From NCBI GenBank assembly GCA_947600065.1, contig CANQFZ010000003.1, positions 62,001 to 126,000 on the forward strand: a stretch of DNA of 64,000 nt, written 5' to 3'. This DNA comes from an uncultured Clostridia bacterium. GTDB taxonomy: Bacteria > Bacillota > Clostridia > Oscillospirales > Ruminococcaceae. Of the stretch, positions 48,645 to 63,026 are shown piece by piece. Each line of letters starts with the position of its first letter. Position 1 is the first letter of the stretch. The position numbers and the translations under genes are program-made. The notes under the pieces were generated by a model that ran no database searches, was not told the DNA's origin, and was given only the letters and a program-made list of their open reading frames with translations.

Positions 48645-50822
48645 ATGAAAACAATTAGTAAGTACATAATCAGCCTGTTTCTGGCGATATTCATATTTGG
48701 TATAATTCCGACAGCAAATGCGTCAACGGCATTATTTCCCAAACCTATTGAGGATTTTCACAAAGATGGACCAATAAACAGTTATCTTGTAACTACAAAC
48801 AACGGCTATATGCGAGTGTACTATGACGAAAACAGCAAGAAAGTCGGCATAGAGTATTACGACAGTAATTTCAATATCACGTCTACAAAGTCAATCGCTA
48901 TGGAGCTTAGTCTCTGGGGCGGTTTTTATAAAGGGAAAGACGCATATTATCTTATTGAGGGACAAGATAATTTAAACGAAGTCTATGGCGCTGAGTATAT
49001 GCGCGTGATAAAATACGATTTCAATTGGAATAAAAAAGGCACGGCAAAGGTTACAACAGCACTTCCAGATACAAGTACGCCGTCTGTAGGTGAACCGCCC
49101 TCAAATCACACAAGCGGAGTTTTCCGTAGTAATGTAAGCGTTGAAGAATATAACAACACTCTTTACATAGCAACAGGCAGGCTTGGTTACCGTGACAGTG
49201 TAGGTGACAGACATCAAGGTCTTTTGTTGGTAGCTGTTGACGAAAGCACAATGGAGTGCCATATCGTTGATGAAAACTTTTACCATTCCGACGACCAATA
49301 TTTAGTTAATGACGGTTCTGACATTTATATGGTAGAGTCAAGAGCTGATAAATATTTGTATTTGTCGTTGTATGACAGTAATATGTACAGCGGTGATACT
49401 TACAACGACAGGTCTGAAAGAACAAAAAGCAAAGGCAGCATACTTGACTTTAAATTTGCCGACAGTTTCGATACTATCTTCGGAATGGAACTTTCTGACA
49501 ATAATGTATTGACTGTTCTTGAATCTTCCGACCAAGACGCATCCAATATAGAACACGCTTTTGAAGATTATGAAAATGTTTATCTGACTGTAACGCCTAA
49601 ATCGAATATGACAAAAGAGGCAACGACCATAAAAAAATTAACCGATTATACGAAACAAACTTACATTGCCGCTTCACATCTCACAAAAATCAACAACAAC
49701 CGTTTTTTGGTTATGTGGGGAGAGACAAGCACAACAATTCCGAAAGCAACTGACAGTAACGATACACTTTCTGGTTATACCTTGCACTATATCTTTGTTG
49801 ACGGAAACGGAAACAGTCTCACGCAGGAATACACGGTAAACGCTCGTGTGTCAGAATGTCCGCCTATTTTGAACGGTTCTAAGGTGGTTTTCTCGTCATC
49901 TTCTGAGCTTACTTTCAACTTTTACACAATAGATGCTAACAGCGGAGCTTTCAGTAAAAAAGTATACCGTAAACTTGGTGATAATGTTACTTGGAGCGTA
50001 GACAGCAATGGAACAATGACTGTTTCGGGTACGGGAAAAGTTGAGGCAGACTCGGAAAACAGTGAAATGAATACATTGAGAGGTTTGGTAAACTGTATAA
50101 AAATAGACGAGGGAATAACGGACATAGACAAAAATGTATTTTATCCGTTGGGTGATGTTGAAAAAGTTTATCTTCCGAACAGTGTGAAAAGTATAGGCAA
50201 AGATGCCTTTGATACAAATGATGATTTGTCGGTAGCTCTTGGGTTTGCACCTCAGATATTCTATTGCAATTCGGGCAGTTACGCTCAGAAATATTGTGAG
50301 CAAAACGATATAAGGTACGAATTGCTCGATAGCACTCAGCAAAGCCAATCAAGTTCATCAAGCAAAACCACTTCTTCGAGTGTAAAGCCTCAAAGCTCAT
50401 CAAATAAAAACAGTTCATCATCTAAGAGTTCAAGCAAACCAAGTTCATCGAGCGCTAAGCCTCAAAGTTCGTCAAGTTCTTCTTCATCAGTTCCTGCAAG
50501 TTCAAGCGTTACCGAAAGTTCGACAGTGACTTCAAGTTCGTCAACAGGCAATACATCAACATCTAGTTCTTCGGTTAGTTCGTCAAGTTCCTCGGTAAGC
50601 ACTTCAAGTTCTTCAAGTGCCACATCTTCCGTTCCTGCCGAAAGTGCTTCTTCAAGCAACGGTTCTTCGGGCAACAGTTCTTCGAGTTCGTCTGTAAGTT
50701 CAACCGTAAATGCTGAAAATACTTCGGACAATGGCTTGCGGATTATAATTGCAGTTGCAGGCGGTGCAGTTGTGGTTGCAGGTGCGATAATAGCAGTAGT
50801 TGTTGCTAAGAAAAAGAGATAA
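48645..50822 (+). CDS. Secreted Ser-rich protein with BspA-like segment and membrane anchor
   Basis: 725 residues. Signal peptide 1-27 (YIISLFLAIFIFGIIPTANA). Residues 30-450 form a beta-rich domain of repeated strand pairs, possibly propeller-like, not named. A BspA-like LRR segment follows (IKIDEGITDIDKNVF, VYLPNSVKSIGKDAF, about 475-530). A Ser/Thr stalk of about 130 residues leads to a C-terminal membrane helix (IIIAVAGGAVVVAGAIIAVV) and KKKR. It would be anchored outside the cell with the stalk spanning the wall. It has its own consensus promoter and terminator. Confidence 0.83.
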   Translation: MKTISKYIISLFLAIFIFGIIPTANASTALFPKPIEDFHKDGPINSYLVTTNNGYMRVYYDENSKKVGIEYYDSNFNITSTKSIAMELSLWGGFYKGKDAYYLIEGQDNLNEVYGAEYMRVIKYDFNWNKKGTAKVTTALPDTSTPSVGEPPSNHTSGVFRSNVSVEEYNNTLYIATGRLGYRDSVGDRHQGLLLVAVDESTMECHIVDENFYHSDDQYLVNDGSDIYMVESRADKYLYLSLYDSNMYSGDTYNDRSERTKSKGSILDFKFADSFDTIFGMELSDNNVLTVLESSDQDASNIEHAFEDYENVYLTVTPKSNMTKEATTIKKLTDYTKQTYIAASHLTKINNNRFLVMWGETSTTIPKATDSNDTLSGYTLHYIFVDGNGNSLTQEYTVNARVSECPPILNGSKVVFSSSSELTFNFYTIDANSGAFSKKVYRKLGDNVTWSVDSNGTMTVSGTGKVEADSENSEMNTLRGLVNCIKIDEGITDIDKNVFYPLGDVEKVYLPNSVKSIGKDAFDTNDDLSVALGFAPQIFYCNSGSYAQKYCEQNDIRYELLDSTQQSQSSSSSKTTSSSVKPQSSSNKNSSSSKSSSKPSSSSAKPQSSSSSSSSVPASSSVTESSTVTSSSSTGNTSTSSSSVSSSSSSVSTSSSSSATSSVPAESASSSNGSSGNSSSSSSVSSTVNAENTSDNGLRIIIAVAGGAVVVAGAIIAVVVAKKKR

Positions 50823-51107: not shown

Positions 51108-51128
51108 CTATTTTGCATAGACAGAAAT

Positions 51129-51165
51129 CCCGAACTTTTAAAAAGGTTCGGGGTATTTTTATTTT
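51129..51165. terminator. Intrinsic terminator
   Basis: CCCGAAC (51129-51135) pairs with GTTCGGG (51146-51152 region), followed by a T-rich tract to 51165. Confidence 0.75.
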
Positions 51166-51176
51166 TAAGTAAATAG

Positions 51177-51212
51177 CGCTCCCGAAATCAAACGGTTTCG
51201 GGAGCGTTTTTT
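51177..51212. terminator. Strong intrinsic terminator
   Basis: CGCTCCCGAAA (51177-51187) pairs perfectly with TTTCGGGAGCG (51196-51206), then TTTTTT. It lies just outside the left repeat of the invertible segment. Confidence 0.85.
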
Positions 51213-51340
51213 GTTATAAGACTAATTTTCCGAAATCAAGAATTTTTCGGGAATAATTTTCAGACGATTTTTGTGCAAATTGCCTAATACATAAAAAATC
51301 CAACCTAAATCAAAAATCGAGCAGTATCAACCGCCCGAAA
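51213..51340. other. Gap between terminators and left inverted repeat
   Basis: No ORF or clear signal; AT-rich with scattered TTCGGGAA-type fragments. Confidence 0.4.
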
Positions 51341-51367
51341 TTTCGCAAAAGTAAATCATTGACGAAA
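51341..51367 (+). repeat. Left inverted repeat of invertible segment
   Basis: 27 bp beginning TTTCGCAAAAG and ending CATTGACGAAA. Its reverse complement occurs at 52699-52725 with one mismatch (position 51346 against 52720); 21 bases (51347-51367) are perfect. The two copies enclose the recombinase gene and the polysaccharide promoter. Confidence 0.92.
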
Positions 51368-51428
51368 CGGTGGTAAAATATTAAATTGTCAAAGAGCTAA
51401 ATTACAAGGGAAAACAGCGTGACAAACC

Positions 51429-52508
51429 TCAACCAAAAGTAATTCGTTTCATATATTCCTGTTTAATTGCAAAGTCTGAATGAACGTAACGTTCGAGAGT
51501 TATGCGGACGCTTGAATGTCCGAGCAGTTCGCTGAGAGCCTTAATGTCAAAGCCGAGCTTTACGCATTCCGACGCAAACATATGCCGAAGCGCGTGAAAA
51601 TGAATTGACGGCAAATTTACGTTTTTCAAAATCTTCGCAAAGCGGTATTGCATTGTTCTCGGTTCAACGGGCTTTTCCTTACCCGAGCATATGTAAAAAT
51701 CGTCGTTTCCCTTGAACTTGCTAAGCAAGCATAAAACGCTTTCGGGAATAGGAATACAACGTTTCGAGGTTTCACTTTTAGGCTCGGTCATGATAAGTTT
51801 TGTCCTGTGCGTTTCATTGTGCGTTTGTATCCTTTGTATTGTTTTCCTGACGGTCAATGTACGTTTTACAAAGTCGATATCTTTCCATTGCAGCGCGCAC
51901 AGCTCGCCTATTCTAATGCCCGTTGTCATTGCAAGCATTATGCCGAGATTTTTAGTGTTTAAGTTTTCAATCAGGTAACGTTTTAAATCATCTTTATTGT
52001 CATCTAAAATTGCAATATCTGCAGGTTTCTTTTTTGGCATAACAATCCCGTCAAGCGGGTCTTCTATGTGATAATGCTTCACGGCAAATTTAAAAATACT
52101 CTTCATCAGAACAACAATGTCAGAAATATATCTGTCTGAAAGTCCGCTATTTTGCTTTGCGTGAATGAAATCGTAAATGTTATTTGTCGTTATTGACGAA
52201 ACGGCAAGTTCACCAAAAACTGGATGAATATGATTGTTCCATTTTAATTGATAATTAGCACGAGTGGATTCTTTTGTCCTTAGCTGAATACTTTGAAGCC
52301 ATTCGTTGTAAATACATTTCAGCGGAATGATGCAATTTGAATTGCTAATTTGGTTATTAAGCTTGAAGCTTATCATTTTTGACTGAACGGCTTCCTTGGT
52401 TTTGGCAAAAAAATAAATGAAAGAGCGTTTTGTGCCGCTCTCTCCGTCCTTTTTAATACGCCCCTCCCAGCGATCGTCCTTGCGATGATAAATATTAAAT
52501 CCCACCAT
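51429..52508 (-). CDS. Tyrosine recombinase, likely DNA invertase
   Basis: 359 residues. SAM-like N-terminal binding domain (NNIYDFIHAKQNSGL, near 105) and a catalytic domain with the full R-K-H-R-H-Y set: TGIRIGELCALQW near 200, HALRHMFASE near 305, LGHSSVRITLERYVH near 328 with the nucleophile Tyr. Length and start (GGAGGGCATT before ATG) are normal. No excisionase, relaxase or phage gene lies nearby. It lies between 27-bp inverted repeats, so it is probably an invertase acting on these and not an element integrase. An extended -10 (TGGTATAAT on the minus strand, 52674-52682) may drive it. Confidence 0.9.
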   Translation of the reverse strand: MVGFNIYHRKDDRWEGRIKKDGESGTKRSFIYFFAKTKEAVQSKMISFKLNNQISNSNCIIPLKCIYNEWLQSIQLRTKESTRANYQLKWNNHIHPVFGELAVSSITTNNIYDFIHAKQNSGLSDRYISDIVVLMKSIFKFAVKHYHIEDPLDGIVMPKKKPADIAILDDNKDDLKRYLIENLNTKNLGIMLAMTTGIRIGELCALQWKDIDFVKRTLTVRKTIQRIQTHNETHRTKLIMTEPKSETSKRCIPIPESVLCLLSKFKGNDDFYICSGKEKPVEPRTMQYRFAKILKNVNLPSIHFHALRHMFASECVKLGFDIKALSELLGHSSVRITLERYVHSDFAIKQEYMKRITFG

Positions 52509-52573
52509 AATGCCCTCCTTGTAGATAATTCACAAATTTTTACGGAAATTTATGTGCTGTTTGCAATAACCTA

Positions 52574-52602
52574 TTGACAACCTTTATAATTTGTGATATA
52601 AT
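52574..52602 (+). promoter_or_regulatory. Polysaccharide-locus promoter inside the invertible segment
   Basis: TTGACA (52574-52579), 17 bp, TATAAT (52597-52602). It points at rfbA, 140 bp away, with no terminator between. As it is inside the inverted repeats, inversion would point it away. Confidence 0.88.
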
Positions 52603-52698
52603 TCAATTGTTTATAGTTTTAATAATCTGCGATCAAACTGCGTGTACAGCACTTTCCCGTTTCTTACTCCTTGATTATACCATTTTGTACAACGGTTT

Positions 52699-52725
52699 TT
52701 TCGTCAATGATTTACTTTTACGAAA
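52699..52725 (-). repeat. Right inverted repeat of invertible segment
   Basis: 27 bp, TTTCGTCAATG to TTTTACGAAA, the inverse of 51341-51367 with one mismatch. It lies between the promoter and the rfbA ribosome site, inside the untranslated leader. Confidence 0.92.
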
Positions 52726-52748
52726 AATTTTTAATGGGAGAAATTAAA

Positions 52749-53627
52749 ATGAAAGGCATAATCCTCGCCGGCGGCAAAGGCACGCGGCTTTATCCGAACA
52801 CGATAGCAGTAAGCAAGCAGCTATTGCCGATATATGACAAACCGCTTATTTATTATCCGCTTTCGGTGCTGTTGCTTGCAAATATCCGCGAAATTCTTCT
52901 TATCTCAACGCCAGAAGACACGCCGAATTATGAAAAACTTCTCGGCGACGGCAGCAAGATTGGTGTACATATCGAATACAAGGTTCAGGACAAGCCTCGC
53001 GGACTTGCGGACGCGTTTATCCTCGGCGCAGATTTTATAGGTAACGACAGCGTTTGCCTTGTCCTTGGTGACAACGTATTCTTCGGTCAGCATTTTTCGG
53101 CAATTCTTGAGAGTGCCAAAAATCAGGCTGAAAAATACGGCGCTGCAATTTTCGGTTATCCCGTAAAAAATCCTAAAGAATTTGGCGTAGTCGAATTTGA
53201 CGAAAAAAACCGTGTAATTTCCATAGAAGAAAAACCCGAATATCCAAAATCAAATTACGCTGTTCCCGGGCTATATTTTTACAACAATGAAGTTGTAGAA
53301 ATTGCAAAGAATGTAAAGCCTTCTGCACGTGGAGAAATTGAAATTACTTCAATAAATAATCATTATCTTGAACAGGGCAAATTGCAGGTAACTCTTATGG
53401 GACGCGGCATGGCATGGCTTGACACGGGTTCTCCGAAAGGCATGCATAAGGCGGGCGGGTTTGTTAAAACTGTTCAGGAAATGCAGGGCTTTTATATTTC
53501 ATGCATTGAAGAGATCGCATGGCGGCGCGGTTTTATCTCAACCGAGCAGCTTAGAAAATGCGGCGAAGAACTTAAAATGACCGATTACGGAAAGTATATT
53601 TTATCGCTTGCGGAGGACAAAAAATGA
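52749..53627 (+). CDS. rfbA: Glucose-1-phosphate thymidylyltransferase
   Basis: 292 residues from [16 protein letters not shown] (GGGAGAA upstream; the in-frame ATG at 52671 lies before the inverted repeat and is rejected). The nucleotidyl-transfer motif [18 protein letters not shown] and [19 protein letters not shown] are those of RmlA. It makes dTDP-glucose from glucose-1-phosphate and dTTP, the first step to dTDP-L-rhamnose. First gene of the operon behind the invertible promoter; overlaps rfbB by 4 bases. Confidence 0.96.
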
Positions 53628-54643
53628 CGATCATTGTAACAGGCGGCGCGGGTTTTATAGGCTCAAACTTCATCTTCCATATACTGAAAAAGTATCCCGA
53701 TTACCGCATAATATGCTTGGATAAATTGACATACGCGGGAAATTTGTCAACGCTTAAAGGCGCTATGGATAAGCCGAACTTCAGATTTGTAAAAGCGGAT
53801 ATTTGCGATAGAAACGCAGTTTATTCGCTCTTTGAAGAAGAACACCCTGACATTGTAGTAAATTTTGCTGCGGAAAGTCATGTTGACCGTTCAATAGAAA
53901 ATCCCGAAATTTTCTTGCAAACCAACATTTTGGGAACACAAGTTCTGATGGACGCTTGCAGGAAGTACGGAATAAAGCGTTATCATCAGGTATCTACAGA
54001 TGAAGTTTACGGCGATCTTCCGCTTGACAGACCCGATCTGTTTTTTACGGAAGAAACGCCGATACATACAAGCAGCCCGTATTCGAGCTCAAAAGCAGGA
54101 GCAGATCTTCTGGTGCTTGCATATCATCGGACATACGACTTGCCTGTAACAATTTCAAGATGTTCTAATAATTACGGACCTTATCATTTCCCCGAAAAGT
54201 TAATTCCGTTAATGATAGCAAACGCGCTCAATGACAAGCCTTTGCCCGTTTACGGAAAAGGCGAAAATGTCCGCGATTGGCTTTATGTTGAAGATCATTG
54301 CAAGGCGATAGATTTAATTATTCACAACGGTAAAGTCGGAGAAATTTACAATATCGGCGGACATAACGAGATGAAAAATATCGACATTGTAAAGCTCATC
54401 TGCAAAGAGCTCGGCAAACCCGAAAGCCTTATTACATACGTTACCGACCGCAAGGGGCACGATATGCGTTATGCAATCGATCCGACGAAAATACATAATG
54501 AGCTTGGCTGGCTACCCGAAACGAAATTTGCGGACGGCATTAAGAAAACGATAAAGTGGTATCTTGAAAACCGCGAGTGGTGGGAAGAAATTATCAGCGG
54601 TGAGTATCAGAATTATTATGAAAAGATGTACGGCAACAGGTGA
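53624..54643 (+). CDS. rfbB: dTDP-glucose 4,6-dehydratase
   Basis: 339 residues, short-chain dehydrogenase fold: NAD-binding GGAGFIGSN at the N-terminus, the [10 protein letters not shown] signature, catalytic YSSSKAGAD with Tyr and Lys, and [14 protein letters not shown]. Converts dTDP-glucose to the 4-keto-6-deoxy sugar. Coupled to rfbA by ATGA overlap and followed 4 bp later by rfbD. Confidence 0.96.
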
Positions 54644-54647
54644 GAAG

Positions 54648-55556
54648 ATGAAAGTATTAGTAACAGGGGCGAATGGTCAGCTCGGCTGGGATATGATATT
54701 GGAGCTTAAAAAGCGTGGTCACGAGCCGATAGCGACCGACATCATTGACAGCTTTGAGCAGGACTGCGAGTACATAAAGTTGGACATAACCGATGAGGGC
54801 GCGGTTCGCGAAGTCATTAAAAAAGTTAAACCCGATGCAGTCGCGCATTGCGCCGCATGGACGGCAGTTGACGCCGCAGAAGATGAGGATAACAAGCCGA
54901 AGGTTTACGCAATCAATGTTTTGGGGACGAAGTACATAGCCGAAGCTTGCAGAGAGATCGACTGCAAGATGATTTATATCTCTACAGATTACGTTTTTCA
55001 TGGGCAGGGAACAGAGCCATGGAAACCTGATTGCAAAGACTATAAGCCTCTTAATTACTACGGTCAGACGAAATTGGAAGGCGAGCTTGCGGTTTCGGAA
55101 ATTCTCGATAAATTTTTTGTTGTAAGGATTGCTTGGGTATTCGGTATCCATGGCAATAATTTTGTAAAAACAATGTTGAAATTGACCGAGAAAAATTCGA
55201 AAATTCGTGTTGTAGATGACCAGGTCGGCACGCCGACATACACATATGATCTTGCAAAATTGCTTGTAGATATGGCGCAGAGTGAAAAGTACGGTTATTA
55301 TCATGCAACGAACGAGGGCGGATTTATTTCGTGGTATGAATTTGCGTGTGAAATTTTCCGTCAGGCGCAAAAAAGAGTGAAAGTAGTTCCTGTTTCCACA
55401 AAAGAATACGGAGCTTCAAAAGCTGCAAGACCGTTTAATTCAAGACTTGATAAGACAAAGCTTTCGCAAAACGGTTTTATTACGCTGCCTGATTGGAAGG
55501 ACGCACTGTCAAGATATATTAAGGAGATAGAAAATGGGACAGATACTGGTAGATAA
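54648..55556 (+). CDS. rfbD: dTDP-4-dehydrorhamnose reductase
   Basis: 302 residues from MKVLVTGANGQLGWDM (AGGTGAG overlapping the rfbB stop). Rossmann motif GANGQLG, ISTDYVFHG and catalytic YGQTKLEGE are present, with RIAWVFG. It carries out the last reduction to dTDP-L-rhamnose with NAD(P)H. The order rfbA-B-D-C is a common variant; it overlaps rfbC by 23 bases. Confidence 0.95.
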   Translation: MKVLVTGANGQLGWDMILELKKRGHEPIATDIIDSFEQDCEYIKLDITDEGAVREVIKKVKPDAVAHCAAWTAVDAAEDEDNKPKVYAINVLGTKYIAEACREIDCKMIYISTDYVFHGQGTEPWKPDCKDYKPLNYYGQTKLEGELAVSEILDKFFVVRIAWVFGIHGNNFVKTMLKLTEKNSKIRVVDDQVGTPTYTYDLAKLLVDMAQSEKYGYYHATNEGGFISWYEFACEIFRQAQKRVKVVPVSTKEYGASKAARPFNSRLDKTKLSQNGFITLPDWKDALSRYIKEIENGTDTGR

Positions 55557-56103
55557 AAATGTTGGAGGGATAGAGGGACTTTGTATAATACAACCCTCTG
55601 TTCATGGAGACAGCCGCGGTTATTTTATGGAAACATACAGTCAGCGCGATATGGAAGAAGCAGGACTGAATTATACTTTTGTTCAGGACAACCAGTCTAT
55701 GAGTACAAAAGGTGTTCTTCGCGGGTTGCATTTTCAGATCAATTATCCGCAAACAAAACTTGTACGTGTAATTAAAGGCAAGGTTTTCGATGTTGCGGTT
55801 GATATTAGAAAGGACAGCGAGACTTTTGGAAAGTGGTTCGGAGTGGAGCTTTCAGATGAAAACAAGAAACAGTTTCTAATCCCTAAAGGTTTTGCACATG
55901 GATATCTTGTTCTGAGCGATGTTGCAGAGTTTTGCTATAAGTGTGATGATTTTTATCATCCCAACGACGAGGGCGGGATCATATGGAATGATCCGGAGAT
56001 TGGGATAGAGTGGAAATTAAAAGATATTCGACAGCCGATTTTGTCGGATAAAGATAAAGTACATGGCGGTATAAAGGAAATTGCTGCCGAAATGAGGAAA
56101 TAA
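55534..56103 (+). CDS. rfbC: dTDP-4-dehydrorhamnose 3,5-epimerase
   Basis: 189 residues, cupin-type epimerase: FVQDNQSMSTKGVLRGLHFQ with the catalytic His, VVDIRKDS-like AVDIRKDSETFGKW, PKGFAHGYLVLSD. Epimerises C3 and C5 before the rfbD step. TAAGGAGAT stands before the start inside rfbD. Confidence 0.96.
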   Translation: MGQILVDKNVGGIEGLCIIQPSVHGDSRGYFMETYSQRDMEEAGLNYTFVQDNQSMSTKGVLRGLHFQINYPQTKLVRVIKGKVFDVAVDIRKDSETFGKWFGVELSDENKKQFLIPKGFAHGYLVLSDVAEFCYKCDDFYHPNDEGGIIWNDPEIGIEWKLKDIRQPILSDKDKVHGGIKEIAAEMRK

Positions 56104-56108
56104 TTTTA

Positions 56109-56990
56109 ATGAATATAAGCGTTATAATCCCCACGCTGAATGCCGGTCAATACATAAAAGACCTTTTAAACAGTTTGTACAGTCAGACGTTAAAACCTAA
56201 TGAGATAATAATTGCCGACTCACAATCCGATGATGACACGACAAAAATTTGTCGGGAATTTCCGAAAGTGAAAATAATCAACGTCAATAGGAAAGAATTT
56301 GACCACGGTGCGACAAGAGATATGGCATTAAGGCAGTCCGAAGGCGAAATTGTCGTTTTTATGACTCAGGATGCGTTGCCGGCAAACGAGTATACTATTG
56401 AAAATCTGATAAAGCACTTAAATAGCGAAGAAAATATTGCGGTTGTCTCGGGACGCCAAATCGCAAGAGAAAACGCTTCTGAAATGGAAAAACTTGTCCG
56501 AGAGTTTAATTATCCGAGTGAAAGCAACATTCGAGCTAAGTCTGACATAGGAAAATACGGGATTAAGACTTTTTACTGTTCGGATGTCTGCGCGGCATAT
56601 AACAAAGAAATTTATCTGAAACTCGGTGGGTTTGAGCATCCCTTGAAAACAAACGAGGATATGTTTTTTGCGGCTAAAGCGGTAAATAGCGGTTATAAGG
56701 TCGGATATGCGGCAGAAGCAAAAGTGATACATTCACACGATTTTACCTTGAAAGAGCAGTATAAGCGGAATTTTATTTTAGGATACGAAATGGAAAAACA
56801 CAAGGAACTGCTTGGAAATGTTTCTGCCAATTCAGAAGGATTTAAACTTGCAAAAAGTGTATCATCTAGATTGTTAAAAAAGGGAAGGATGTTTTCTTTT
56901 TTTAGATTTGGATTTGATTGTTGTGCAAGGCTTTTGGGAAGTAAGATGGGAAAAGGAAAGTTTAAAAATGATGTACATAATAACTCATAA
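56109..56990 (+). CDS. GT2-family glycosyltransferase, possibly rhamnosyl
   Basis: 293 residues, GT-A fold: SVIIPTLNAGQYIKDLLNSL start, DSQSDDDT nucleotide site, FDHGATRDMAL and MTQDALP (the DxD-like site). FDHGATR and QD are typical of rhamnosyltransferases, which would fit the rfb genes upstream. Cytoplasmic, adding a sugar to the lipid-linked repeat unit. Only 5 bp after rfbC. Confidence 0.88.
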   Translation: MNISVIIPTLNAGQYIKDLLNSLYSQTLKPNEIIIADSQSDDDTTKICREFPKVKIINVNRKEFDHGATRDMALRQSEGEIVVFMTQDALPANEYTIENLIKHLNSEENIAVVSGRQIARENASEMEKLVREFNYPSESNIRAKSDIGKYGIKTFYCSDVCAAYNKEIYLKLGGFEHPLKTNEDMFFAAKAVNSGYKVGYAAEAKVIHSHDFTLKEQYKRNFILGYEMEKHKELLGNVSANSEGFKLAKSVSSRLLKKGRMFSFFRFGFDCCARLLGSKMGKGKFKNDVHNNS

Positions 56991-57765
56991 AAAAGTAAAA
57001 ACACCAATTTTAAACGGATATGTTCCTTTACTTGTAGGTGCTTATAATAAAGAATTATATGATTACAAAAGAGATGATTCTGGAGATAATATTTCGTACA
57101 AAAATTCTGATTACTGCGAATTAACCGGATTATATTGGATATGGAAAAATACTGATGATAGTTATAAGGGAATAGTTCATTACAGAAGATTTTTTTGCAA
57201 AAGCAGATGGAATGGTAATGAAAAAAATATAATATCAATTGATAAATTAAATGAATGGCTAGAAGAATATGACTTAATTACTACATATCAAGAACATATT
57301 CGCTTTAGTTTAAAAAAGAAGTTGATTCTATACCATTGTTCTGAAGAAGTTTTTGATGCTATGCGTGATTCGGTTCTGCGTCTTTACCCTGAATATATTG
57401 ATTGTTTTGATAAGGTTTTTAATGGAAATACAATGTCCATTTGTAATATGGTATATTGTAAAAAGAAAGTTTTTGATAGCTATTGCGAATGGCTTTTTAA
57501 GATATTAAATGAAACTGAAAAAACTGTTGAGCAAAAGAAATTAGAATATCAGCCTCGACTATATGGCTTCTTGAGTGAAAGACTGTTTAATGTATGGATA
57601 AATTATAATAATTTAAATTGCAAAAGACAGCCTATAATGAACATCGAGTTCAATCTTTTAAAAAGAACAAAATGGATTTTTACAACATATATTTCAGATT
57701 TGATTTTTAAGATAAAAAAACTGCGTAATGGTGCGATCAAGGGTTACAATTCTAAAGGAAGCTAA
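56968..57765 (+). CDS. DUF4422 glycosyltransferase-like protein
   Basis: 265 residues from MMYIITHKKVKTP (AAAAGGAAAG upstream; the ATG at 56908 lies far inside the previous gene). The DUF4422 pattern is seen in YVPLLVGAYNK, YCELTGLYWIWKN, GIVHYRRFF and the late LEYQPRLYGFLSERLFNVW. DUF4422 proteins sit in capsule loci and are thought to transfer sugars. Clearly more AT-rich than the rfb genes. Confidence 0.85.
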   Translation: MMYIITHKKVKTPILNGYVPLLVGAYNKELYDYKRDDSGDNISYKNSDYCELTGLYWIWKNTDDSYKGIVHYRRFFCKSRWNGNEKNIISIDKLNEWLEEYDLITTYQEHIRFSLKKKLILYHCSEEVFDAMRDSVLRLYPEYIDCFDKVFNGNTMSICNMVYCKKKVFDSYCEWLFKILNETEKTVEQKKLEYQPRLYGFLSERLFNVWINYNNLNCKRQPIMNIEFNLLKRTKWIFTTYISDLIFKIKKLRNGAIKGYNSKGS

Positions 57766-57867
57766 TATATTATGTTGTATGCTTATGTAAATAAGACTTT
57801 GTCAATGCAATAAAGAGAATATTTTATAAATAAGACTGTAAAATTCCATAAAGGAGTCTTTAACTTA

Positions 57868-59058
57868 ATGAAAGATGCTCTGATTTCTTTGGCAATATAT
57901 TTTGTTCTTTTTTCGGTAGTTTTGTTTTTTGCATATTTGGTTGATATAAACAAACGCAAAAAGAAGAAAAAAGAAACAATTATATTTGGGCTACTTGTTG
58001 TAATTATACCCTGTATCTTCGCGGGTATGCGAGCTGATTCCGTAGGTACTGATATAAGAGTTTATGCCAAAACTGTATTTGAATATGTTTTGCATAGCGG
58101 ATCTATATTAGAAACTCAGCAAGTATATAATGTTGAATTAGGATATGTTACATTAGCGTATGTATGTTCAAAAATATCGTCATCATTGTCTTTTTTTCTT
58201 TTTGCAACTGAATTGCTAATAGTAGTGCCGGTTTATTGTGTCGCGTATAAAAGAAGTAAGAAATGTTCTGTTTGGTTTACAATGTTAGTGTATTTATTGG
58301 TATTCTATTGTTCAACATTCAACATTATGAGACAAAGTATAGCAGCTTCATTTTTACTTCTTTCATATCAATTTTTTGAAGAGAAAAAATTGAAAAAATC
58401 AATAATTTTTGCCGTTATAGCTTGCTTTTTCCATAATTCAACTATTGTTGGAATTGCAATGTATTTAGTAGCAAAATTCATTGGACAAATTAAAAATAAA
58501 GTAAAACAAGGATTTATTACATTATTTGCTTCACTTGTGATTTTGATTGTATCAGTGTATTGGTATGATTTTTCAATGTTTTTTATAAAAAAAGGTTTGA
58601 TATCAGATAAATTTTTATTTTATGTTGAAATATTCAGACAATCTGAAGTTTCAAGCAGTTATATGTTCATAATTTCGAGAGGAAATTATGTGGAATTAAT
58701 ATTCAGAATTTTATTTGTTTTATTATCGTTTATTCTAATTTATCTTAACAAAAAAACAAGCAAAAGTCCTGAGGTTAATTTTTATATGTTTCTAATTTTT
58801 ATATCTGAATTGATTTACGCTTTAGTATTTGTCGTATTTCACTCATCGTATGGATTGAGAATTATTTGGTTCGGAGAGTGGATACTCTTGTTGCTTTTCC
58901 CCTCTTTGTCGTATTCTGAGGAGAAAAGTACTGATGGAAATACAAAAACTATATCTACAAATTTGATGATAATTTTAATTATATGTGTTTTATATTTTTC
59001 AATAGGATTTGTAGGATTGGGATGGCATGGCGTTAAGCCGTTAAGATTTAGATTTTAA
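57868..59058 (+). CDS. EpsG/Wzy-type polysaccharide polymerase
   Basis: 396 residues with about ten to eleven hydrophobic helices. Pattern typical of the EpsG family: CIFAGMRADSVGTDIRVYAKT, FNIMRQSIAASFLLLSYQFF and FHNSTIVGIAMYL. It would polymerise repeat units outside the membrane. TAAAGGAGTC before the start. Strongly AT-rich. Confidence 0.88.
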   Translation: MKDALISLAIYFVLFSVVLFFAYLVDINKRKKKKKETIIFGLLVVIIPCIFAGMRADSVGTDIRVYAKTVFEYVLHSGSILETQQVYNVELGYVTLAYVCSKISSSLSFFLFATELLIVVPVYCVAYKRSKKCSVWFTMLVYLLVFYCSTFNIMRQSIAASFLLLSYQFFEEKKLKKSIIFAVIACFFHNSTIVGIAMYLVAKFIGQIKNKVKQGFITLFASLVILIVSVYWYDFSMFFIKKGLISDKFLFYVEIFRQSEVSSSYMFIISRGNYVELIFRILFVLLSFILIYLNKKTSKSPEVNFYMFLIFISELIYALVFVVFHSSYGLRIIWFGEWILLLLFPSLSYSEEKSTDGNTKTISTNLMIILIICVLYFSIGFVGLGWHGVKPLRFRF

Positions 59059-59072
59059 AAGGAGTTTTTATT

Positions 59073-60020
59073 ATGACCCCACTTGTTTCAATAATTTGTA
59101 TAACCTATAATCATGCTGAATTTATTGAGTCAGCAATTGAAGGGTTTATATCTCAAAAAACGAATTTTCCTTATGAGATTATAATACATGATGATTGTTC
59201 AACAGATGGCACTACTGAAATAATAAAACAATATTCACAAAAATATCCTGATTTGATAAGACCATTTTACGAAGACGTAAATTGTTTTTCACGAGGTATA
59301 AAGGTTCTTCACAGATTAATGTGTGAAGAAGCAAAAGGTAAATATATAGCTATTTGTGAGGGTGATGATTATTGGTGTGATCCTCATAAATTACAAAAAC
59401 AAGTAAACTATATGGAAGAACATGATAATTGTTCGTTGGTATTGCATAACGGTTATCAGTTTGACTATGATGTGAAATCTAAAACGCCAATTGATCCTTA
59501 TGAGAAAGATGGCATAATAAGTGATAAAGATATAATCTTAGAACCGGGTAAAATGCCTCCTACAGCATCAATGATGTGGAGAAAAAAAGATTTAGCTGAT
59601 ATGCCGCAATTATTTCAATATACACCTGTGGGTGACAGAACGCGAAGAATGTATCTTATTCTTAAAGGCTATACTTATTATATGTCAGATATTATGTGTG
59701 TTTACAGAGTAGGGGTGCCCGGTTCATTCGGTAAAAGAACAGTAGAAAATCAAAACTATAATAAAAAAGTCCTTGATGGTATGCTGGATTTTTACGATAA
59801 ATATGATGAATACACACATGGAAAGTTCAAAGAAGAAATCGAATTAGTAAAATCAAGAGAATGGTATCATTTTTACCGACGCTCCGGACAGCATATGAAA
59901 GCATTTAAAACTGATTATTTTAAAAATCATTTTACCTGTGCAGAAAAAATTAAATATCTTGTTTCTGTAATTCTACCGAACCCAATAAAAAAAATAATAA
60001 AAAAATATTTTATTAAATAA
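59073..60020 (+). CDS. GT2-family glycosyltransferase
   Basis: 315 residues. SIICITYNHAEFIESAIEGF and HDDCSTDGTTEII mark the GT-A donor site; CEGDDYWCDPHKLQKQ contains the metal-binding GDDYW. C-terminal basic helix (KKIIKKYF) suggests contact with the membrane. AAGGAGTTTTT upstream. Sugar specificity unknown. Confidence 0.9.
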   Translation: MTPLVSIICITYNHAEFIESAIEGFISQKTNFPYEIIIHDDCSTDGTTEIIKQYSQKYPDLIRPFYEDVNCFSRGIKVLHRLMCEEAKGKYIAICEGDDYWCDPHKLQKQVNYMEEHDNCSLVLHNGYQFDYDVKSKTPIDPYEKDGIISDKDIILEPGKMPPTASMMWRKKDLADMPQLFQYTPVGDRTRRMYLILKGYTYYMSDIMCVYRVGVPGSFGKRTVENQNYNKKVLDGMLDFYDKYDEYTHGKFKEEIELVKSREWYHFYRRSGQHMKAFKTDYFKNHFTCAEKIKYLVSVILPNPIKKIIKKYFIK

Positions 60021-60047
60021 TTATTTATATTTTTGGAGGAATATTTA

Positions 60048-61484
60048 TTGCAAAACAATAAAATAATTAACAACTTCCTCTGGCGTTTTCTCGAACGCTG
60101 TGGTGCGCAGGGCGTAACTTTTATAGTATCTATAGTCCTCGCGCGGTTCCTTAATCCTGATGTTTACGGAACAGTCGCACTTGTAACAGTATTCACAACT
60201 ATAATGCAGGTTTTTGTAGACAGTGGAATGGGTAACGCACTTATTCAGAAGAAAGATGCGGACGATTTAGATTTTTCGAGCGTGTTCTATTTCAATATCG
60301 CGATATGTTCGATTTTGTACATAATAATGTTTTTCACCGCACCTATAATTGCGGGCTTTTACGATATGCCTGATCTAACTCCTGTTATACGAGTGCTGAG
60401 TTTAGTAATAATAATCTCCGGTATAAAAAACGTTCAGCAAGCATATGTTTCTCGAAACTTGATATTTAAGAGGTTTTTCTTCTCAACGCTCGGAGGAACG
60501 CTTGGAGCAGCGGTAGTCGGCATAGTTATGGCATGTCTCGGCTTTGGCGTTTGGGCGTTGGTTGCTCAAATGGTTTTCAACGTGCTTGTTGACACTTTAA
60601 TTTTATGGCTAACGGTAAAATGGCGACCAAAACTGATGTTTTCATTTCAGAGGTTAAAAAGTTTATTTTCATTCGGCTGGAAACTGCTGGCTTCGGCACT
60701 GTTGGATACGGTTTATAATGAACTACGTCAACTAATAATTGGGAAAATGTACAGTTCAGATGATCTTGCTTTTTTTAATCAAGGAGAAAAATTTCCCAAA
60801 GTTATAGTAACCAATATAAATACATCAATTGACAGTGTTCTCCTTCCGACCATGTCCACCGAACAGGATAACCGCGAACGTGTGCGTGCAATGACGCGCC
60901 GAGCCATTCGGACAAGCACATATCTCATGATGCCGATGATGGTCGGTCTTGCGGTATGCGCCGAACCGTTAGTCAGCCTTATTCTTACAGATAAATGGCT
61001 CCCATGCGTGCCGTTTCTACGGATTTTCTGTTTTACATTTGCGTTCTATCCGATTCATACCGCAAACCTCAACGCTATCAAGGCCATGGGTCGAAGCGAT
61101 ATGTTCTTGAAACTGGAAGTTATAAAAAAAGTATATGGTTTGGCTATTTTACTTTCTACGATGCAGTTTGGTGTCATGGCAATGGCATATAGTCTGCTTG
61201 TCTCAAGTATTATCAGTCAGATAGTCAACTCGTGGCCGAATCGGAAACTGTTGGATTACCGATATATTGATCAACTGAAGGATATGCTCCCGCAGATTGG
61301 GCTTTCCCTTTTTATGGGCGTAGTTGTATTTTGCGTGCGGTTTCTGCATCTGAGCAGTTGGTTGACATTGCTTATTCAAGTGCCATTGGGTGCGATAATT
61401 TATATTGTTGGATCGAAGATATTTAGATTTGAGAGTTTCAATTATGTGCTGAATACCGCTCGAAATTTTCTGAAACACAAATAA
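60048..61484 (+). CDS. Wzx-type oligosaccharide flippase
   Basis: 478 residues, starting at TTG 60048 with GGAGGA 8 bases upstream; the earlier TTG at 60033 overlaps that ribosome site. Polysaccharide-biosynthesis family with 12-14 helices (FLERCGAQGVTFIVSIVLAR, FLNPDVYGTVALVTVFTTIM, GMGNALIQKKDADD). It flips the lipid-linked repeat unit to the outer face. Less AT-rich than the three genes before it. Confidence 0.9.
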   Translation: MQNNKIINNFLWRFLERCGAQGVTFIVSIVLARFLNPDVYGTVALVTVFTTIMQVFVDSGMGNALIQKKDADDLDFSSVFYFNIAICSILYIIMFFTAPIIAGFYDMPDLTPVIRVLSLVIIISGIKNVQQAYVSRNLIFKRFFFSTLGGTLGAAVVGIVMACLGFGVWALVAQMVFNVLVDTLILWLTVKWRPKLMFSFQRLKSLFSFGWKLLASALLDTVYNELRQLIIGKMYSSDDLAFFNQGEKFPKVIVTNINTSIDSVLLPTMSTEQDNRERVRAMTRRAIRTSTYLMMPMMVGLAVCAEPLVSLILTDKWLPCVPFLRIFCFTFAFYPIHTANLNAIKAMGRSDMFLKLEVIKKVYGLAILLSTMQFGVMAMAYSLLVSSIISQIVNSWPNRKLLDYRYIDQLKDMLPQIGLSLFMGVVVFCVRFLHLSSWLTLLIQVPLGAIIYIVGSKIFRFESFNYVLNTARNFLKHK

Positions 61485-61549
61485 TTTATAGAAAAAATTG
61501 AAAATGAGATAGAATGGATATTATATCAGTTAAGAAGGAAGTGTGCAAC

Positions 61550-61821
61550 ATGAATATTGATCTATTAAAAAACAAAAAATTGCTTGATTATAGCTATTTC
61601 TCACAGCTGAAAGATAGCTCCCACAGATAATACTCTCACTTGCAATAGGCGCAATAGTCTACTGCGTTTCGTTCATATGCCTGAGTGATATAGTAACGCT
61701 CTGCATTCAAGTTCCGCTTGGCGCAATTATATATTTCGCTGCATAGTGGATTTTTAAATTGGATAGTTTTGAATACGTATTGAATATAGTAAAAAACTTT
61801 TTAAAAAAGAAAAGAGGATAA
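61550..61821 (+). pseudogene. C-terminal remnant of a second Wzx flippase
   Basis: NKKLLDYSYFSQLKDSS, then after a frameshift PQIILSLAIGAIVYCV, TLCIQVPLGAIIYFAA, TAG, WIFKLDSFEYVLNIVKNFL and TAA at 61821. It matches the end of the flippase just upstream (NRKLLDYRYIDQLKD, IQVPLGAIIYIVG, FESFNYVLNTARNFLK). One frameshift and one stop show decay. Confidence 0.8.
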
Positions 61822-61829
61822 ATGAAACG

Positions 61830-63026
61830 ATGAAAAAACTTCTTTTGCTTGGCGGGTCCCGCTATATAATTCCTGTAATAGAAACAGCTCATAAGCTTGG
61901 AGCGTATGTAATTACCTGCGATTACCTGCCGGATAATATTGCTCATAAGTATTCCGATGAATATTGGAATATCAGCATTGTTGATAAAGATGCAGTTCTT
62001 AAGGCTGCGCAGGAAAATAAAATCGACGGAATTATGTCATTCGCCTGCGATCCCGGGGTTGTGACTGCTGCTTACGTTGCTGAGAAAATGGGACTGCCAT
62101 CATGCGGACCTTACGATTCGGTTTGTATCCTTCAGAACAAGGCAAAGTTCCGTAAATTCCTTTCCGAAAACGGCTTTAATGTACCGATGGCAAAGGGTTA
62201 TTCATCTTTGGAGGAGGCACTTAATGATACTTCATTGTTCCATTGGCCTGTCATAGTTAAACCGACAGACTCAGCTGGAAGCAAAGGAGTGACCCGTGTT
62301 GATACTCCTGAAAAACTGAAGGAAAGCATTAAATATGCACTTAGTTTCTCTCACAGCGGAGAATTTATTATTGAAGATTTCCTTGAAAAGAAAGGACATT
62401 CGTCTGATACCGACAGCTTTTCTGTCGACGGAGTTCTGAAATTCGTTTCGTTCTCTGCGCAGAGATTTGATGAAAATTGTGAGAATCCGTATACACCTGC
62501 TGCATATACTTGGCCGGCAACGATTTCTCAGGAACATCAGGAAGAGCTTGCCAATGAGATATGGCGTCTTTTGAAATTGCTCGGCATGAAAACGTCGATA
62601 TACAACATTGAAACAAGAGAATGCACCGACGGCAAGGCTTATATAATGGAGTGCTCCCCTCGCGGCGGAGGAAACAGGCTTGCCGAAATGTTAAGATATG
62701 CTACCGGCGAAGATCTGATAGAAGCAGCCGTTTCAGCTGCGCTCGGAGAAAAAGTAAATATAGTGCAGAAGCCATATAACGGTTATTGGGCAGAGATAAT
62801 ACTACACAGTAAAAAGCCCGGAATATTCGAACGGATTGATATTTCAGAAGAATTAACAGGAGAAATTATTGAAACAGATTTATGGGTACAACCCGGAGAT
62901 TATGTAGGTGGATTCTCCGGAGCAAACGAAGCAATCGGAACAATGATACTGAAATACGATTCTAAGGATACAATGGAGAAAGAGATGGGGAAAATCAGTA
63001 AGATGGCAAAGGTAATTCTCCGATAA
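61830..63026 (+). CDS. ATP-grasp enzyme
   Basis: 398 residues. N-terminal Rossmann-like part (LLLLGGSRYIIPVIETAHKL), then the ATP-grasp core: VIVKPTDSAGSKGVTRV as phosphate loop, GEFIIEDFLEKKG, and YIMECSPRGGGNRLAEML with the metal-binding Glu. Such enzymes join an acid to an amine or thiol using ATP. In a polysaccharide locus it may add an amino acid or similar group to a sugar, together with the aminotransferase-like gene next to it; this is inference. Confidence 0.85.
   Translation: MKKLLLLGGSRYIIPVIETAHKLGAYVITCDYLPDNIAHKYSDEYWNISIVDKDAVLKAAQENKIDGIMSFACDPGVVTAAYVAEKMGLPSCGPYDSVCILQNKAKFRKFLSENGFNVPMAKGYSSLEEALNDTSLFHWPVIVKPTDSAGSKGVTRVDTPEKLKESIKYALSFSHSGEFIIEDFLEKKGHSSDTDSFSVDGVLKFVSFSAQRFDENCENPYTPAAYTWPATISQEHQEELANEIWRLLKLLGMKTSIYNIETRECTDGKAYIMECSPRGGGNRLAEMLRYATGEDLIEAAVSAALGEKVNIVQKPYNGYWAEIILHSKKPGIFERIDISEELTGEIIETDLWVQPGDYVGGFSGANEAIGTMILKYDSKDTMEKEMGKISKMAKVILR

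Follow-up and report, generated by a model that had tools for sequence, protein, structure and literature searches.

A probable self-contained invertible promoter cassette, carrying its own tyrosine recombinase, upstream of an exopolysaccharide operon in an uncultured clostridial bacterium

The window analysed here is the whole 64,000-nucleotide stretch of contig CANQFZ010000003.1, from an uncultured member of the Ruminococcaceae (this genome is G000 below). Within it, a pair of short inverted repeats encloses a segment whose only open reading frame encodes a tyrosine recombinase (Table 1). The repeats pair at 26 of 27 positions, as the preliminary description had claimed. Near the right-hand repeat the segment contains an outward promoter with a perfect (12/12) match to the sigma-70-type consensus and a spacer of 17 nt; a TG precedes its -10 element, and the runner-up in the 2.2-kb region scores 10/12. 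The right repeat lies in the leader of rfbA, the first gene of the target operon, and ends 23 nt before its ATG, so that a complete promoter cannot fit in between. Inverted repeats around an outward promoter beside a gene start are the arrangement by which invertons are recognised. Downstream of rfbA follow rfbB, rfbD, rfbC, glycosyltransferases, an EpsG-type polymerase, a flippase and an ATP-grasp gene (Pfam matches to nucleotidyl transferase, dehydratase, RmlD, dTDP-sugar epimerase, glycosyltransferase 2, EpsG-type polymerase, flippase and ATP-grasp), and genes on the same strand run on past the end of the window. On the other side, two terminator-like hairpins lie 133–214 nt outside the left repeat in a flank that carries no large gene. 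The perfect promoter, the paired terminators and the placement of the right repeat in the rfbA leader had each been proposed previously, and all are borne out. Between these hairpins and a more distant MMPL gene lies a gene for a 725-residue serine-rich, signal-peptide-like protein (window positions 48645–50822), most of which is omitted from the alignments with the two congeneric genomes considered below.

Table 1. Features at the predicted invertible cassette (window coordinates)
Feature	Position	Strand	Remark
Terminator-like hairpin outside left repeat	51127..51154	+	
Terminator-like hairpin outside left repeat	51175..51208	both strands	promoter would face this hairpin when OFF
Left inverted repeat, putative recombination site	51341..51367	+	10-bp arm, 7-bp spacer, 10-bp arm
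Spacer of left repeat, GTAAATC	51351-51357		
Tyrosine recombinase gene, within the predicted invertible segment	51429..52508	-	359 aa
Outward promoter, TTGACA-17-TATAAT	52574..52602	+	towards rfbA (predicted ON as seen)
Conserved extended -10, TGGTATAAT, candidate recombinase promoter	52674..52682	-	inward
Right inverted repeat, second putative recombination site	52699..52725	-	
Spacer of right repeat	52709-52715		same as left spacer on opposite strand
rfbA (nucleotidyl transferase), first gene of target operon	52749..53627	+	PF00483, E 2.8e-75
Remainder of target operon in the window	53624..63026	+	Pfam

The enclosed gene had been taken for a tyrosine recombinase, and the domain searches agree (Pfam Phage_integrase, E 2.4e-28; Phage_int_SAM_3, E 1.1e-11). 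Both the core-binding and the catalytic domain of the tyrosine recombinase fold are present according to Pfam and structural matches, and the R, HxxR, H and Y residues, which we take to be the catalytic residues, are kept among the aligned family members. By sequence, the closest solved structures are Tn1549 Int and XerA; matches of a structure model of moderate quality (mean pLDDT 70) agree, with Tn1549/Tn916-type integrases among the top two fold matches. The protein falls far below the cut-offs of both NCBIfam models for tyrosine-type DNA invertases (27.5 bits against 221 and 26.4 bits against 222). In the same model residues 5–52 are predicted to form three strands and one helix. This is the composition of integrase arm-binding domains. 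Pfam at E values up to 1 returned no arm-domain model on the recombinase, and the structural matches begin near residue 56–58; residues 1–57 were hardly probed by the fold search. In the excerpted text of PMC8138268 arm domains are linked to mobile elements; were such a domain confirmed here, the enzyme would be an arm-type integrase acting as an invertase.

The 17-base inner part of the repeat, allowing fewer than 3 mismatches, occurs elsewhere in the 2.2-Mb genome only at both ends of a second cassette (L026), whose recombinase is 92% identical to that of the window. A search of 43 genomes from the genus for the 27-base pattern, allowing at most 3 mismatches, gives 12 sites, corresponding to both ends of six cassettes; the reversed 27-base control pattern has no match in the same genomes. 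Family-wide, the repeat consists of two opposing 10-bp arms (consensus TTTCGCAAA plus one base) on either side of a 7-bp spacer, as in the core sites of tyrosine recombinases. In 69 of the 74 cassettes examined, that of the window included, 10 or more of the 20 arm pairs, summed over both sites, are in dyad. The paired spacers of one cassette differ at 3 of 483 positions and the paired arms at 196 of 1380, with 151 of the latter mismatches in the inner arm. Between cassettes the spacers vary, 56 different ones being found in 69 cassettes. Agreement within a cassette combined with divergence between cassettes fits the requirement of strand exchange, although the spacer count is partly circular, as the repeats were detected through a matching core; the inequality of outer and inner arms is not explained in this way.

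Two congeneric genomes, G034 and G040, allow the locus to be compared between relatives. The left flank in G034 is orthologous to that of the window, comprising the MMPL gene and its neighbour (95.8% identity over 7.2 kb), then terminators and the left repeat; the terminator flank has related counterparts in both genomes. Inward of this repeat, the window and G040 continue into the 3' end of the recombinase gene, whereas G034 continues into the promoter end, so that its promoter faces the terminators. On the far side in G034, the 3' end of the recombinase gene is next to a polysaccharide gene, glf (for UDP-galactopyranose mutase), whose GTG start is 26 nt from the repeat. When the window cassette is flipped in silico it aligns with its G034 counterpart (L060) as a single stretch of 1579 nt at 88.7% identity, whereas unflipped it gives two opposed alignment pieces, and the breakpoints of the inversion between window and G034 are the repeats themselves. 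A comparison of strains had been suggested as a check on the proposed switch; the comparison between relatives yields both a reversed cassette at an orthologous locus and the arrangement predicted for the OFF state.

Reversal is seen at further loci. The second cassette of the window's genome and its counterpart in G041 (L063) are reversed relative to L061 of G034, beside the same lipoprotein gene; on the other side the same gene start, phosphoglucomutase-like by eye, is present in both G000 and G041, where the contigs end. Two loci of one genome, G350 (L142 and L150), are reversed with both flanks homologous, and reversal also occurs between helicase loci L125 and L131 and between surface-protein loci L104 and L106. 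At these other reversed loci some flank matches start within 8 nt of the repeat and others 15–86 nt out, which makes the breakpoint less sharp at the latter. Contig ends 90–200 bp outside several cassettes were considered as a trace of mixed orientations and rejected, since a tangle of two orientations should break at the repeat itself.

The opposite orientations might instead be errors in metagenome-derived genomes. The close relatives found in the named collection are contigs of metagenome-assembled genomes (MAGs), from assemblies labelled Lapin, and one of them is visibly odd: L051 (CANQMH010000100.1, 1–3726) has an rfbA leader flanking the cassette on either side, contains the site three times and the promoter region in duplicate, and its ends look like mutual inverted repeats. 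Yet breakpoints coincide with the repeats in several loci and genomes, plasmid records of Ruminococcus albus 7 and Vescimonas fastidiosa MM35 share the design, and a mixed assembly would itself require both orientations in the sample. We therefore regard assembly error as extremely unlikely.

In every comparison the segment is met in both orientations between species or between loci only, each orientation representing a different species or a different locus of one MAG. This pattern would also be expected of an old invertible promoter whose recombinase has ceased to switch it and which is now fixed in each lineage. A dead enzyme would, however, permit decay of its sites and reading frame. Instead, the frames are open in six of six close cassettes, the catalytic residues are retained in the aligned members, and within each close cassette the two sites have identical spacers and at most 3 differences in the arms, which renders a frozen switch very improbable.

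With high confidence, then, we interpret positions 51341–52725 as a self-contained invertible promoter cassette with its own recombinase, and very likely one that turns a sugar coat on and off. The promoter switch previously inferred upstream of the exopolysaccharide operon is supported by the reversed orthologues and by the repeat-flanked relatives described below. In the proposed mechanism the encoded recombinase would bind both 27-bp sites and invert the DNA between them, an activity that we infer, together with continuing switching within one population. The orientation seen in the window would be the ON state, with the promoter presumably transcribing rfbA and the downstream operon. After inversion (OFF) it would fire into the hairpins at 51127–51208, leaving the operon promoterless. 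Because the recombinase gene would move within the segment along with the signals for its expression, of which the inward extended -10 is the probable one, the enzyme could be produced in either state. This motif is found in eight of eight aligned cassettes; among 75 related cassettes it occurs exactly in nine (1.3% in shuffles), seven of which are the close group plus L102. A family-wide inward recombinase promoter was accordingly rejected, and the motif is proposed for the close group only.

Relatives of the recombinase (E ≤ 1e-60) are present in 17 of 43 genomes of the genus, 69 of 396 of the family and 20 of 391 of the class. Inverted repeats were scored at 85 distinct loci from genus and family, which represent the better-scoring part of the recombinase family (60 regions were fetched, and the duplicate loci L048, L049, L050 and L052 were removed), and around 149 other open reading frames of like size from the same loci. 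Repeats scoring at least 14 flank 75 of the 85 recombinase genes against 4 of the 149 controls, and at a score of at least 17 the counts are 68 and 1; ten of the 85 loci have no repeat, and seven more a weak one. Between recombinase start and repeat, an outward promoter with at most two mismatches is found in 67 of the 75 cassettes (8.7% of mononucleotide shuffles), and one with at most one mismatch in 50 (0.4%). The class-level search gave 25 loci, three of which (G105, G153 and G231) belong to the window's own family, with repeats scoring at least 14 in 23 and at least 17 in 22; the arm sequence differs at these loci, and two repeats longer than 160 nt may be something else. In the window's genome, a third related recombinase (33% identical) is flanked by repeats pairing at 27 of 27 positions, and five further integrase-like genes lack such repeats. 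Two named strains carry the design on plasmids: pMM35_02 of V. fastidiosa MM35 has a 29/29 repeat near a dockerin protein gene, and pRUMAL02 of R. albus 7 a 20/20 repeat with a perfect promoter. Other R. albus copies include one with a weak 24-nt repeat and a third with none. On pRUMAL02 a 48%-identical recombinase sits in a dense recombinase island (L208, 3897–11333), between two genes annotated as tyrosine recombinases and three annotated as members of the recombinase family.

Judged from the sequences, the same kind of predicted cassette recurs before many other genes in gut Clostridia. The outward genes at cassette edges encode glycosyltransferases, Wzz, Glf, pilin, NPCBM, dockerin, LRR and lectin proteins, as well as LytTR response regulators, ResIII/HA helicases and PLD-type proteins (30 edge genes were scanned, 7 of them giving no Pfam match at 0.001). 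By a simple distance rule applied to the 75 cassettes, 12 have an outward gene on the promoter side only and 42 on the other side only, 8 have one on each side and 13 have none; the excess on the non-promoter side fits a bias towards the OFF state, though it was not predicted. Of 15 LytTR genes, 13 lie on the non-promoter side; of five helicases, three lie on the promoter side, a weak sixth match (L051) being excluded. In one subfamily (L072, L073, L075, L159 and similar) the cassette stands between genes that by eye are of conjugation type and a LytTR regulator, and the promoter points away from the regulator. Cassettes beside PLD-type and ResIII/HA helicase genes (L142 and L150, in G350:C7 and C12; L110, L113, L125, L131 and L067) occur in both orientations. 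PADLOC returned mostly partial matches to restriction-type proteins, for which reason a phase-variable defence role is only suggested.

On a tree of 40 recombinases, chosen for labelable targets and assigned by hand to four target classes from Pfam scans and the appearance of the sequences, the class changes 13 times where 3 changes would suffice and shuffled labels give a mean of 21.5 (the row for L075, with a faulty translation and an end branch of 5.5, is to be disregarded). Cassettes thus mostly keep their target class, yet have been re-used repeatedly.

Such re-use raises the alternative that we are dealing primarily with a small mobile element whose repeats are transposition ends, inversion and promoter activity being side effects of insertion. 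The surplus of target-class changes is in keeping with this, as are the resemblance to Tn1549 integrase and the presence of two cassettes with closely similar recombinases at unrelated loci of one genome, between which DNA homology stops at the repeats (window 51340–52726 against L026 122–1523). An empty site was sought through the left flank and MMPL gene in the 43 genomes of the genus, and no clean one was found; the candidate G037 has the same MMPL neighbour at 91%, but unrelated genes adjoin it, with neither a site nor a clean junction. Inverted sites with an asymmetric spacer, moreover, favour inversion over excision as a general principle, and the strong outward promoter together with orthologous loci in both orientations indicates a maintained switch. 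We consider a mere mobile element unlikely. A recent exchange of target operons between two cassettes was also examined, because G040 joins the MMPL flank to a glycosyltransferase operon found elsewhere in G034; homology on the glycosyltransferase side begins 100–157 nt outside the repeat, and a recent site-specific exchange is therefore unsupported.

Starting from the invertible promoter as the preferred reading, it is conceivable, and we propose it tentatively, that the cassette is a portable element, in which an integrase-like recombinase and a strong outward promoter between inversion sites would spread, render neighbouring genes phase-variable and act in places as an either/or selector between divergent genes. 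If so, sugar coats, adhesins, LytTR regulators and restriction-like helicase genes would have been made phase-variable by the same means. In L107 (G180:C48, 2668–4260) a cassette lies between two divergent, paralogous genes for large surface proteins; leaders and sites together form a 181-nt inverted repeat, and inversion would swap the expressed gene. The nearest relative outside the genus, at 66% (L102, G180:C23, 5267–8746), is flanked by a glycosyltransferase-8 gene and, in divergent orientation, a nucleotidyltransferase gene, possibly as an either/or polysaccharide switch.

The preliminary description likened the locus to FimB/FimE, the Tsr enzymes of Bacteroides and RecV of Clostridioides difficile. 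The likeness holds for the type of recombinase; in layout, with the recombinase inside the segment, the cassette is closer to Hin of Salmonella. The Hin segment, too, contains an outward promoter. Its recombinase gene lies inside the inverted H segment, as excerpted in PMC5903667, but Hin is an enhancer-dependent serine recombinase (PMC3798978, in excerpt), whereas the window enzyme matches Pfam Phage_integrase and is not of the Hin type. The RecV switches share with the cassette a tyrosine recombinase and inversion at short repeats beside clostridial genes; there one recombinase serves several sites, according to the same excerpts of PMC5903667, whereas here each cassette carries its own. Invertible promoters, including ones with recombinase genes inside the segment, are thus already known from that source, which also describes, in Providencia stuartii, a putative invertible segment of 844 bp with a recombinase ORF inside it, as a single case from another phylum, at a fimbrial locus and with 14-bp imperfect repeats. 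The nearest prior finding, compared here by description, is the clostridial inverton group 139 together with invertase group 35, for which the excerpted text of PMC11892184 gives reads in both orientations and a linked tyrosine recombinase family, encoded nearby in group 139. The two group-139 elements quoted there enclose about 205 and 227 bp, too little for a recombinase gene and unlike the self-contained segment of about 1.4 kb in the window. Tn1549/Tn916-type integrases drive conjugative transposons, whereas the recombinase here stands alone between inverted sites. Among open-licence papers no description of this clostridial family of self-contained cassettes was found, and what appears to be new is that Clostridia contain a large family of self-contained tyrosine recombinases that has been re-used before many genes.

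Clostridia are major gut bacteria, and invertible promoters have been worked out chiefly in Bacteroides and C. difficile. A switch that brings its own enzyme can be identified from sequence, by a repeat, an integrase and an outward promoter within about 1.4 kb, so that candidate phase-variable genes can be listed from assemblies without reads. Since some cassettes adjoin genes for restriction-type helicases or LytTR regulators, switching may extend beyond surface structures to defence and signalling. The design is present in the named strains R. albus 7 and V. fastidiosa MM35, and the cassette is compact enough for testing in E. coli. A 33%-identical recombinase on an Enterococcus raffinosus plasmid (L210, 4731–6270) is associated with an 18-nt inverted repeat; a helix-turn-helix gene and the accessory secretion genes secA2/secY2 lie downstream of it.
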